A stretch of 64,000 nucleotides of DNA from Niallia sp. Man26 (GTDB lineage: Bacteria > Bacillota > Bacilli > Bacillales > Cytobacillaceae): the NCBI RefSeq assembly GCF_022049065.2, contig NZ_CP095743.1, positions 139,001 to 203,000 on the forward strand. The letters run 5' to 3'. Numbering within the stretch: the first letter of the stretch is position 1; each line of letters opens with the position of its first letter. This document shows, piece after piece, positions 5,225-9,933 of the stretch. A model generated the notes under the pieces. The model had not been told where the DNA came from. It did no database searches and saw nothing but the letters and a program-made list of their open reading frames with translations. Position numbers and translations under genes: made by a program.

Positions 5225-5237
5225 GGAGGGAAATTAG

Positions 5238-5420
5238 ATGGCAAACAAACTGGAAATTACCCTCACTAAAAGCGTTATTGGTCGTCCTCAAGACCAACGC
5301 GAAACAGTTAAAGCGTTAGGTTTGCGTAAAGTAAACCAAACAGTACAACAACAAGATAATGCTGCTATCCGCGGCATGATCACTAAAGTATCACATTTAG
5401 TATCTGTTAAAGAAAACTAA
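5238..5420 (+). CDS. rpmD: 50S ribosomal protein L30
   Basis: 60 residues ([20 protein letters not shown]...), the short bacterial L30 with the conserved [13 protein letters not shown] stretch. It starts 14 nt after rpsE behind AAGGAGGGA at 5224-5232, which begins on the last base of the rpsE stop codon. L30 is a peripheral large-subunit protein. Confidence 0.97.
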
Positions 5421-5452
5421 AAATCATTCTTCTTCAATAAGGAGGTGCCAAT

Positions 5453-5893
5453 ATGAAACTTCATGAATTAAAACCTGCAGAAGGTTCTCGTAAAGAACGT
5501 AAGCGTGTCGGTCGTGGTATCGGTTCAGGTACTGGTAAGACTGCTGGTAAAGGTCATAAAGGTCAAAATGCACGTTCAGGTGGGGGTGTAAGACTAGGAT
5601 TTGAAGGTGGTCAAACTCCTTTATTCCGTCGTTTACCAAAACGTGGTTTTACAAACATCAACCGTAAAGAATACGCAATTGTTAACCTTGATGTTCTTAA
5701 CCGTTTCGAAGATGGAGCAGAAGTGACTCCAGAACTTCTTATCGAAACTGGAATCGTGAGCAACGAGAAAGCAGGAATTAAGATTCTTGCAAATGGCAAA
5801 GTTGAGAAAAAGCTTACTGTTAAAGCACATAAATTCTCCTCTGCTGCAAAGGAAGCTATTGAAGCTGCCGGCGGTCAAACTGAGGTGATTTAA
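5453..5893 (+). CDS. rplO: 50S ribosomal protein L15
   Basis: 146 residues starting [20 protein letters not shown], with the glycine-rich basic N-terminal tail ([19 protein letters not shown]) that threads into 23S rRNA and a globular C-terminal half. AAGGAGGTGCC at 5440-5450 is the ribosome binding site. Its TAA shares its final A with the ATG of secY, so the two are translationally coupled. Confidence 0.98.
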
Positions 5894-7188
5894 TGTTTCA
5901 GACAATCTCCAATTTTATGCGCGTGGGTGAAATAAGACGTAAAATCATATTCACCCTATTAATGTTGATTATATTCCGTATCGGTACTTTCATACCGGTA
6001 CCTTATGTAAATGCAGAGTTTTTACAAGCGCAGGATGCTTTTAGTGCCTTCGGTATTCTAAATACATTCGGCGGCGGCGCGCTTAGCAACTTTTCTATAC
6101 TTGCTATGGGGATTATGCCATATATCACAGCATCTATCATTGTCAGCTTGCTGCAGATGGATGTTGTACCTAAGTTCACTGAATGGTCTAAACAAGGTGA
6201 TGCTGGTCGACGTAAGTTAACTCAATTTACTAGATACTTCACTATCGTCTTAGGCTTCATTCAGGGCTTTGGAATGTCTTATGGTTTCAATAACCTTGCA
6301 GGTGGTGCTTTGATTACTAATCCTGGATTTAGTTCCTACTTGGTAATCTCTGTTGTGTTAACAGCAGGAACTGCTTTCTTGATGTGGCTTGGGGAACTAA
6401 TCACGTCAAAAGGTGTTGGTAATGGTATATCTATTATCATCTTTGCTGGGATAGCTGCTGGAATTCCAAATATCGCTAACCAAATTTATGCACAACAGTT
6501 TGAAAACCCTGGTGATCAATTATTCTTGCGCATTGCTACAGTGCTTCTAATTCTAGTTGCAGTGGTAGCTCTTGTAGTTGGAGTAATCTTCATCCAGCAA
6601 GCACTTAGAAAGATCCCAATTCAATATGCGAAAAGAATGACAAATGGAAACAGCTCGGTTGGAGGACAATCTACACATCTTCCGCTAAAGGTTAACTCTG
6701 CTGGAGTTATCCCGGTTATTTTCGCGGTTTCATTCTTGGTTACTCCAAGAACAATCGCATCATTCTTTGAGCAAAATGCTGTAACAACTTGGATACAAAA
6801 AGTATTCGACTACACGCATCCTATTGGAATGGTTATCTATACAGTATTAATTCTTGCATTCACTTATTTCTATGCTTTTATCCAAGTTAATCCTGAACAA
6901 GTTTCAGAGAACTTGAAAAAGCAAGGTGGATACATTCCAGGTATCAGACCAGGAAAAAGTACGCAAGAATATTTGACTCGTGTTCTTTACCGTTTAACAT
7001 TAGTCGGTGCATTATTCTTGGCTGTTATTGCCATTCTTCCAGTGTTCTTTATCAACATTGCCGGGTTACCGCAATCTGCGCAAATTGGTGGAACGAGTCT
7101 ACTAATCGTAGTCGGTGTTGCACTGGAAACAATGAAGCAGTTAGAATCCCAGCTAGTTAAACGTCACTATAAAGGATTTATAAAATAA
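5893..7188 (+). CDS. secY: preprotein translocase channel subunit SecY
   Basis: 431 residues with about ten hydrophobic segments, the pore of the Sec translocon in the cytoplasmic membrane. Family motifs are GGGALSNFSILAMGIMPYI near residue 56, and the cytoplasmic loop NPEQVSENLKKQGGYIPGIR, which contacts SecA and the ribosome. The start overlaps rplO by one nt. adk follows after 68 nt, the usual spc-operon order. GGGGACTCTTGTCCC at 7201-7215, in the gap, can form a small stem without a U-run. Confidence 0.98.
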   Translation: MFQTISNFMRVGEIRRKIIFTLLMLIIFRIGTFIPVPYVNAEFLQAQDAFSAFGILNTFGGGALSNFSILAMGIMPYITASIIVSLLQMDVVPKFTEWSKQGDAGRRKLTQFTRYFTIVLGFIQGFGMSYGFNNLAGGALITNPGFSSYLVISVVLTAGTAFLMWLGELITSKGVGNGISIIIFAGIAAGIPNIANQIYAQQFENPGDQLFLRIATVLLILVAVVALVVGVIFIQQALRKIPIQYAKRMTNGNSSVGGQSTHLPLKVNSAGVIPVIFAVSFLVTPRTIASFFEQNAVTTWIQKVFDYTHPIGMVIYTVLILAFTYFYAFIQVNPEQVSENLKKQGGYIPGIRPGKSTQEYLTRVLYRLTLVGALFLAVIAILPVFFINIAGLPQSAQIGGTSLLIVVGVALETMKQLESQLVKRHYKGFIK

Positions 7189-7244
7189 CATATAATTTTA
7201 GGGGACTCTTGTCCCTTGAATTTTATGTGCAAGACTTTATTTAG

Positions 7245-7913
<669 letters not shown>

Positions 7914-8450
7914 ATTCATAAAACACTTTTGCTTAGACTAATCTGAATCTAGCATGGACTTAAATCAGAGAATAAAATAGAAGAATTGGGATGAAATGGC
8001 TAAGGAGTTTATTCCTAAACATGATGCATTTCCTTTTTTCAAAAGGTATAATAATTCCTATGGTTATATCTGTAACAAATAAAGCATAAATATGAATTTT
8101 AATGTTTATGTGAGTTAGAAGAATAATCAATTTATGATAATTGGTGCAGAGTATTTTGGATTTCATGGTAGCTCCGCTTGAATTGCTTTTTTATCTAGTA
8201 GTGAAGAAGGTAACTATTATTCTTTCTATTATGGACATAAGGTATAGGACCAGGTGTGCGCAATCGGTAATCCCTCTTTATTTTAATATCGGAATGCGAA
8301 GATCTTTACGGCATTTCATGTAGCGATTGTGTATGTGATGCGAAAAATACGGTTAGACTCTTGAAGAAGTGTCCATGCTATTTTTTTTGCAGTAATTAAC
8401 AAAAGCAGTGAAACAGCCGCAGTTAGCACTTTGCTAGTGTTTTTATATTA
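7914..8450 (+). pseudogene. map: decayed methionine aminopeptidase gene (map remnant)
   Basis: No open frame survives, but fragments in order match type I methionine aminopeptidase. In one frame, 7981-8079 reads KNWDEMAKEFIPKHDAFPFF and then KRYNNSYGYIC, aligning with the family segment around KHGAIPSFKGYNGFRGSIC. After two stops in the same frame, 8143-8178 reads GAEYFGFHGSSA, matching GAxYxGYHGDSA (the metal-ligand Asp is now Ser). The catalytic GHGIG appears at 8233-8249 split by two extra bases, and IPLY at 8270-8281 lies at the expected distance. A VAIVYVM stretch and KKC follow where VLAVEPM and KKCAHF are expected. Stops, frameshifts and a deletion of about 40 codons after the HGSSA motif show decay. 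Position between adk and infA is the normal site of map. The comparison uses the family sequence from memory. Confidence 0.85.
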
Positions 8451-8489
8451 CCCTGTTAGCAAGAAATATTACTTTTAATATAGCTTTAT

Positions 8490-8605
8490 AACGGAGTGTA
8501 AAAGCAATATTAGCTGTGTTGGTGGTCACATTGGTCGATTCTGATGGAAGTTTATAATTTTTATTATTAATTTGTCATTATTAGCGGACGAAGGTTTAAC
8601 ATTGT
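8490..8605 (+). pseudogene. possible remnant of the KOW-domain gene that follows map
   Basis: In B. subtilis a small KOW-domain (L14e-like, ybzG) gene lies between map and infA. Here CAATAT at 8505-8510, then after two bases GCTGTG and onwards (8513-8554), encodes AVLVVTLVDSDGSL. This resembles the QYAVVI...VD core of that family, and a stretch at 8573-8597 reads roughly like its IIADGDKRKF motif with frameshifts. The similarity is short and from memory, so this is a suggestion supported mainly by position. Confidence 0.3.
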
Positions 8606-8613
8606 GTTATAAT
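8580..8613 (+). promoter_or_regulatory. candidate extended -10 promoter for infA-rpmJ-rpsM-rpsK
   Basis: TGTGTTATAAT at 8603-8613 matches the extended -10 consensus TRTGnTATAAT in every defined position. No good -35 is present 17 nt upstream. A second, weaker candidate is TTGCAG (8621-8626) with TATTAT (8645-8650). Either would give a leader of 100-150 nt to infA. The element lies inside the decayed map/KOW region. Confidence 0.4.
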
Positions 8614-8764
8614 CAATTAGTTGCAGTTATATGACGAATTAGTATATTATAGAGCAGTTCAGAGTAGTTGATGTACACCGATCGTGTTACAAAAGAGAGA
8701 ACTACACTTTGCTATATTTAGTTTAAAGTATTTCGCATTTTAAAATGAAGGGAGAATTTATTCG

Positions 8765-9134
<370 letters not shown>

Positions 9135-9156
9135 TAATAAGGAGGTGCGCATATAG

Positions 9157-9522
9157 ATGGCACGTATTGCTGGTGTGGATATTCCACGTGAAAAACGCGT
9201 AGTAATATCTTTAACATACATTTTTGGTATCGGAAAAATTACTGCACAAAAAGTATTGGCAGAAGCTGGTGTTTCTGAAGATACTCGTGTTCGTGACTTG
9301 ACGGAAGATGAACTTAACAAAATCCGTGATATCATTGACAAACTAAAAGTTGAAGGTGACCTTCGTCGTGAAGTTTCACTTAACATCAAACGTCTAATGG
9401 AGATCGGTTGCTACCGTGGTCTTCGTCACCGCCGTGGTCTTCCAGTTCGCGGACAAAACACGAAAAACAACGCTCGTACACGCAAAGGTCCTCGTAAGAC
9501 TGTAGCTAACAAGAAAAAATAA
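9157..9522 (+). CDS. rpsM: 30S ribosomal protein S13
   Basis: 121 residues beginning [20 protein letters not shown], with the C-terminal basic tail [21 protein letters not shown]13 is at the head of the 30S subunit and contacts the P-site tRNA and L5 (bridge B1b). AAGGAGGTGCGC at 9139-9150 is the ribosome binding site. Confidence 0.98.

Positions 9523-9933
<411 letters not shown>

Follow-up and report, generated by a model that had tools for sequence, protein, structure and literature searches.

What remains in the long gap between adk and infA of Niallia sp. Man26, where relatives normally carry map, the gene for type I methionine aminopeptidase (MAP), and is what remains merely spacer? The sequence analysed here, called the window, is a stretch of 64,000 nucleotides (positions 139001-203000 within the 5.7-Mb genome), and its adk is 97% identical to that of Niallia taxi (L006) and 94% identical to that of N. 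circulans (L007).

A dead map gene between intact flanks

The features that define the locus are as follows.

7257..7913, plus strand: adk, intact, upstream flank (218-aa ORF)
7922..8534, plus strand: ruin of map, codons 11-245 (DNA alignment with the sister map of L011; protein pieces)
8765..8983, plus strand: infA, intact, downstream flank (72-aa ORF)

From the end of adk at 7913 to the start of infA at 8765 the gap measures 851 bp and holds no MAP open reading frame (ORF), in agreement with a first-pass annotation of the locus, which had reported about 850 bp without an open frame. The longest forward stop-to-stop frame in the gap spans 60 codons, and a 68-codon ORF on the minus strand (7960-8166) is unrelated to the order of MAP.

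Homology was assessed against locus L011, the sister of Niallia in a tree of SecY, L15 and Adk (starred branch), in which map is intact. Alignment of the Niallia majority DNA sequence with map codons 11-245 of this locus gave a score of 217, compared with a mean of 53 and a maximum of 84 in 300 shuffles of two-base blocks. In a piecewise, frame-by-frame protein comparison, 7990-8073 corresponded to MAP residues 41-68 of L011 (score 82) and 8140-8178 to residues 95-107 (score 46), where no single piece in 150 dinucleotide shuffles scored above 39. The collinear chain of protein pieces reached 177, against a mean of 77 and a maximum of 139 in the shuffles (n=150) and 94 on the minus strand. Taken alone against the L011 map, 8300-8580 also scored above chance (59.0, with 0/300 shuffles as high); other stretches were barely or not significant on their own, with shuffles as high in 8/300 cases for 8179-8300, 34/300 for 7914-7985 and 220/300 for 8080-8130.

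The earlier description of MAP motifs in the right order is borne out by the two protein pieces and fails for two of the motifs themselves. Pieces at the supposed GH-GIG and IPLY motifs score 18-22, which is chance level, and each of the two motifs is lost in some of the relatives; the DNA alignment places codons 127-136, not GHGIG, at 8216-8244. The ruin also extends beyond the 7914-8450 first assigned to it, being aligned to 8534 with a residual match within 8300-8580.

Many indels and stops interrupt the ruin, as had been seen at first pass, and the MAP frame, read from 7996, meets a stop within 35 codons in 12/12 distinct Niallia sequences (18 loci). In the window, the HGD of MAP has become HGS, which matches the replacement of Asp by Ser noted before; this Asp is a metal ligand of the enzyme. 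With no ORF and with HGD changed to HGS, the locus does not encode a functional type I MAP, the catalytic domain of which has five metal ligands. An intact gene misread or misassembled at this position, named at the outset as one way in which the pseudogene could prove false, has next to no probability: the shared broken frame in twelve distinct sequences excludes misassembly, and nothing was found in favour of a sequencing or assembly error. In total, the synteny with adk and infA, the homology beyond chance and the destroyed open frame establish that the gap holds an old map pseudogene.

Substitute MAP genes and repeated loss of map

Another MAP gene elsewhere had been postulated, and the same genome in fact contains three intact MAP-length type I MAP ORFs, L003, L004 and L005, with TIGR00500 scores of 320, 314 and 299 bits (cut-off 171), in addition to two further M24 matches that are longer ORFs of 370-380 aa. 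Among the genus genomes, the L003 type and the L005 type are each found in 13/13 and the L004 type in 10/13 (absent from G004, G011 and G012). To judge from these sequences, the intact genes at other loci can stand in for the dead map, and the L003 type would be the one that took over. L005 presumably resembles YflG. Published work on B. subtilis (PMC1266368) reports that map is essential whereas yflG, the second gene, is dispensable, that the two enzymes are each active, and that a plasmid copy of either one rescues a map defect, although the B. subtilis disruptants proved unstable.

The loss of map is not confined to the window. At the loci of named relatives, a 248-codon map lies intact between adk and infA in 54/80 and does not in 26/80. 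With the window included, map is lost in 27 of 81 Bacillaceae loci, and a tree obtained by quick search, with L084 on a long branch, needs six changes to explain this, five of them forced by starred branches. Comparison of the gap across related species, as had been proposed, would place the loss on the Niallia stem. Niallia endozanthoxylica has a 205-bp adk-infA gap (L040:3655-3859) with other MAP remnants (RLSNISHTIQ, IGQDLH); its loss of map looks separate because L040 falls outside the Niallia clade of the tree.

At the level of whole genomes, 113 of 193 family genomes have the spc-type map (best E at or below 3.6e-133, rows counted by eye) and 80 lack it, one of the latter, G091, being only 66% complete. 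A MAP of the L003/L004 type (best E below 1e-100) is missing from 34/193. The spc-type map is gone in 78/159 genomes with such a spare versus 2/34 without, in counts made by eye over related, non-independent genomes and uncorrected for kinship. Two genomes of group g19, G117 and G118, have by E-value neither the spc-type map nor an L003/L004-type MAP (best 1e-47 to 1e-53); a different MAP probably serves there. A gene that is essential in B. subtilis has thus been repeatedly dispensable in Bacillaceae, nearly always with a second MAP paralogue present, which bears on how essentiality is judged and on MAP-targeted antibacterials.

Two blocks of the ruin are nearly invariant across the genus

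Rates of change were inferred from 12 distinct Niallia sequences, obtained from 18 loci by removing six identical ones, on a tree built from adk and infA; the Niallia alignments leave out L040, which with its 205-bp gap lies outside the seven-row Niallia clade. Three segments of the ruin are distinguished by these rates.

7975..8056, plus strand: frozen block A (map codons ~41-62 from 7989 on), 1 inferred change in 82 sites
8126..8245, plus strand: frozen block B (map codons ~91-136), 13 inferred changes in 120 sites
8276..8580, plus strand: unconstrained rest of the ruin, with residual match from map codons ~156, 1.475 changes per site

Block A shows 0.012 inferred changes per site, a figure from a single change with a bootstrap range of 0-0.037, and is about 100 times slower than either adk third positions (1.175) or 8276-8580. 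Block B, at 0.108, is about 11-14 times slower than the same two references. Both block counts exclude single-base and five-base indels, which also occur in the blocks. For adk positions 1 and 2 the values are 0.207 and 0.147, for infA position 3 the value is 0.222, and in the remaining gap they are 0.509 (7914-7970), 0.406 (8057-8125), 0.633 (8246-8275) and 0.641 (8581-8764). When seven species were compared over 5225-9900, the invariant runs longer than 32 bases all fell within or next to infA, rpmJ and rpsM, apart from two in the ruin, 8003-8056 and 8136-8170. The blocks within 7975-8245 are under strong constraint at the nucleotide level and are not mere spacer. The near-invariance of most of 7975-8245 across the genus had been missed at first pass.

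The block is present in 12/13 genus genomes; the exception, G009, has neither the block nor an adk match despite a stated completeness of 99%. Outside the genus, 16 genomes have a block match, 13 of them inside map genes and the other three only 22-30 bases long. No second genomic copy and no phage or plasmid origin of the block was found, the viral contigs having been searched with an exact 30-base pattern. Short extra matches in the window's own genome (L099-L101, 20-21 bases) and in genome G003 (L129, 31 bases) look like chance, and in three of the four an ORF lies over or just beside the match. Since there is no second copy and the changes within the blocks follow the species clades, gene conversion is an unlikely cause of the near-invariance.

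These rates divide the initial view of the locus as an old pseudogene kept as spacer, of which the first half stands and the second does not. Inert sequence is exactly what 8276-8580 resembles, and there the ruin evolves without constraint; 7975-8056 and 8126-8245 do not, and an inert spacer leaves the 1/82 and 13/120 changes beside saturated sequence unexplained. A recent spread by recombination does not rescue it either, given the clade-wise distribution of the block changes, and we regard inertness of the whole gap as very improbable.

Decay came first, constraint later

Over codons 41-68, identity between Niallia and L011 is 0.75, 0.75 and 0.75 at codon positions 1, 2 and 3, while the same codons in 53 intact genes have means of 0.85, 0.91 and 0.60. 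As the codon periodicity of a living gene is gone, the segment first decayed freely on the stem and was later fixed at the nucleotide level.

The order of events would be otherwise if an overlapping element had already existed within the living map and had outlived the gene. Across 54 intact map genes, synonymous divergence among 28-codon windows is indeed lowest at codons 41-68, at 0.81 of expectation (adk minimum 0.88), and 15-codon synonymous dips also occur at codons 145-165 and 169-183 (0.73-0.77), stretches whose like is recognisable in Niallia, Peribacillus and Neobacillus-group ruins. These dips are however small and might stem from the choice of codons for conserved residues, and the 25% difference between Niallia and its sister over codons 41-68 is spread evenly over codon positions. 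In other genera, conservation of the gap exceeds that of adk third positions by little in the Peribacillus pair L046-L056 (0.77 vs 0.64) and hardly at all in the Neobacillus group, L051 vs four others (0.61-0.67 vs 0.47-0.60). Strong constraint on ruins of other genera was thus not seen in the Neobacillus group and was slight in Peribacillus in the pairs tested. An element inherited from within the living gene is in our view improbable.

What the frozen blocks may encode

Our tentative preference is that a new, genus-specific functional RNA of about 200 nt in 7975-8245 arose from the dead map within a ribosomal-protein operon, recruited after the spare MAP was in place. RNA is favoured because of the elimination of other readings, the length of the blocks and the independence of the constraint from any frame. 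Two candidate features fall in this region.

7991..8089, plus strand: candidate 32-aa ORF in a non-MAP frame, intact in 11/12 sequences, codon use not adapted
8086..8109, plus strand: candidate hairpin, lying in the more variable middle (8057-8125), with 93.7% of cells still paired

The candidate ORF offers a different explanation for block A, namely that the constraint falls mostly on a small protein of 32 aa. In 11/12 sequences the first 22 residues are identical, and their codons carry a single base change, which is synonymous; in the twelfth, L091, a 1-base deletion in a T run breaks the ORF and may be a sequencing error. That one synonymous change is nevertheless far under the adk third-position rate of 1.18 and low even at the infA rate of 0.22, non-synonymous changes prevail in the last 10 codons, and the comparison of synonymous with non-synonymous change draws on few changes in total. 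Codon adaptation of the ORF is 0.39; ribosomal-protein windows average 0.74, and the value for all frames of the gap is 0.36. A 28-codon MAP-frame piece from 7996 has an adaptation of 0.51, but its end is not conserved. No frame is conserved in block B, and a peptide from it was rejected on that ground, as was a longer MAP-frame fragment. We therefore consider a constrained peptide rather unlikely.

A constraint that hits all positions irrespective of frame would equally suit an element acting at the level of DNA, such as protein binding sites, a cryptic promoter or similar, and one promoter-like site on the minus strand (8076-8048) lies at block A. The blocks are long for a binding site, however, and a promoter scan of 7850-8800 found two sites against 4.5 expected by chance. 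Such an element is, on balance, doubtful.

For the RNA itself, the evidence from folding and covariation is weak, and neither a terminator nor an excess of promoters was found. The 8086-8109 hairpin keeps its pairing in 93.7% of cells as compared with 20-60% for slid versions, and its fold has a z of -1.75 to -4.19 over 9 distinct sequences. None of its pairs shows a double change; its pairing is equalled in 44/500 column shuffles and its covariation score in 465/500. The stability of hairpin A was matched in 7/54 intact genes and in 115/2000 random substitution sets, so that it is not clearly a derived structure. The fold of 7970-8275 as a whole was no stabler than shuffles (z -0.5; minus strand -1.0), and among 76 pairs predicted by RNAalifold one had a change on both sides. 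A search of 7000-9200 against Rfam on both strands at E up to 1 gave no match in the ruin; its sole sub-threshold match, to the Alpha operon ribosome binding site (Alpha_RBS), lies before rpsM at 9085-9189 with 24.1 bits (gathering score 38).

In order to account for the locus as a whole, the following sequence of events is proposed. On the Niallia stem, a second type I MAP of the L003 type would have made map dispensable and map died; the dead gene would then have decayed regardless of codons, after which 7975-8056 and 8126-8245 were recruited as a nucleotide-level element, while the remaining ruin goes on decaying. The element would belong to the secY-adk...infA transcript or else be a processed small RNA, its sequence and local hairpins being what matters, and it might for example help to process or stabilise the mRNA between adk and infA. 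For this full account, from the spare MAP that freed map through its death and decay to the recruitment of two blocks, most likely as RNA, we would claim slightly less than an even chance.

The map of Bacillaceae sits in the same place between adk and infA and can be aligned there, dead in Niallia and in about five other lineages. Dead genes that stay in place and are possibly transcribed are likewise described for Sodalis (PMC7067036) and for Buchnera spacers (PMC3164680), endosymbionts with many pseudogenes or reduced genomes; in Niallia, by comparison, genus genomes are 3.8-5.8 Mb and part of one ruin is frozen at the nucleotide level. Intercistronic constraint at the nucleotide level is also a property of the regulatory RNAs of Bacillota in Rfam, from which the Niallia element differs in having no Rfam match, little covariation and an origin in a protein gene. 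In the literature on Niallia, on spc-operon and map loss and on pseudogene-derived bacterial RNA, of which the parts available included few subscription journals, no report of the element was found. The locus provides a natural case in a bacterium of a dead protein gene that became a constrained non-coding element, and the intact sister gene shows the state before.

Remnants and conserved sites downstream

Two further features lie between the ruin and infA.

8480..8640, plus strand: weak remnant of the second gene, which follows map in L011 as a ~107-codon ORF (DNA alignment)
8605..8613, plus strand: TGnTATAAT, extended -10-like, kept in 12/12 sequences (alignment)

The second-gene remnant has a DNA score of 95.8 against a maximum of 70 in 200 shuffles, with first matched blocks at 8480-8556 and the extension to 8640 read by eye. 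We take the ~107-codon ORF of L011 to be KOW/YbzG-like, and the alignment suggests that the gene behind map probably also died in Niallia. The trace of this second gene may include TGnTATAAT and the infA leader (8581-8764, 0.64 changes per site). The TGnTATAAT at 8605-8613 is a possible infA promoter that the promoter scan did not return. Beyond infA, the spacer to rpmJ (8984-9020) is invariant at 37/37 bases across seven Niallia species.
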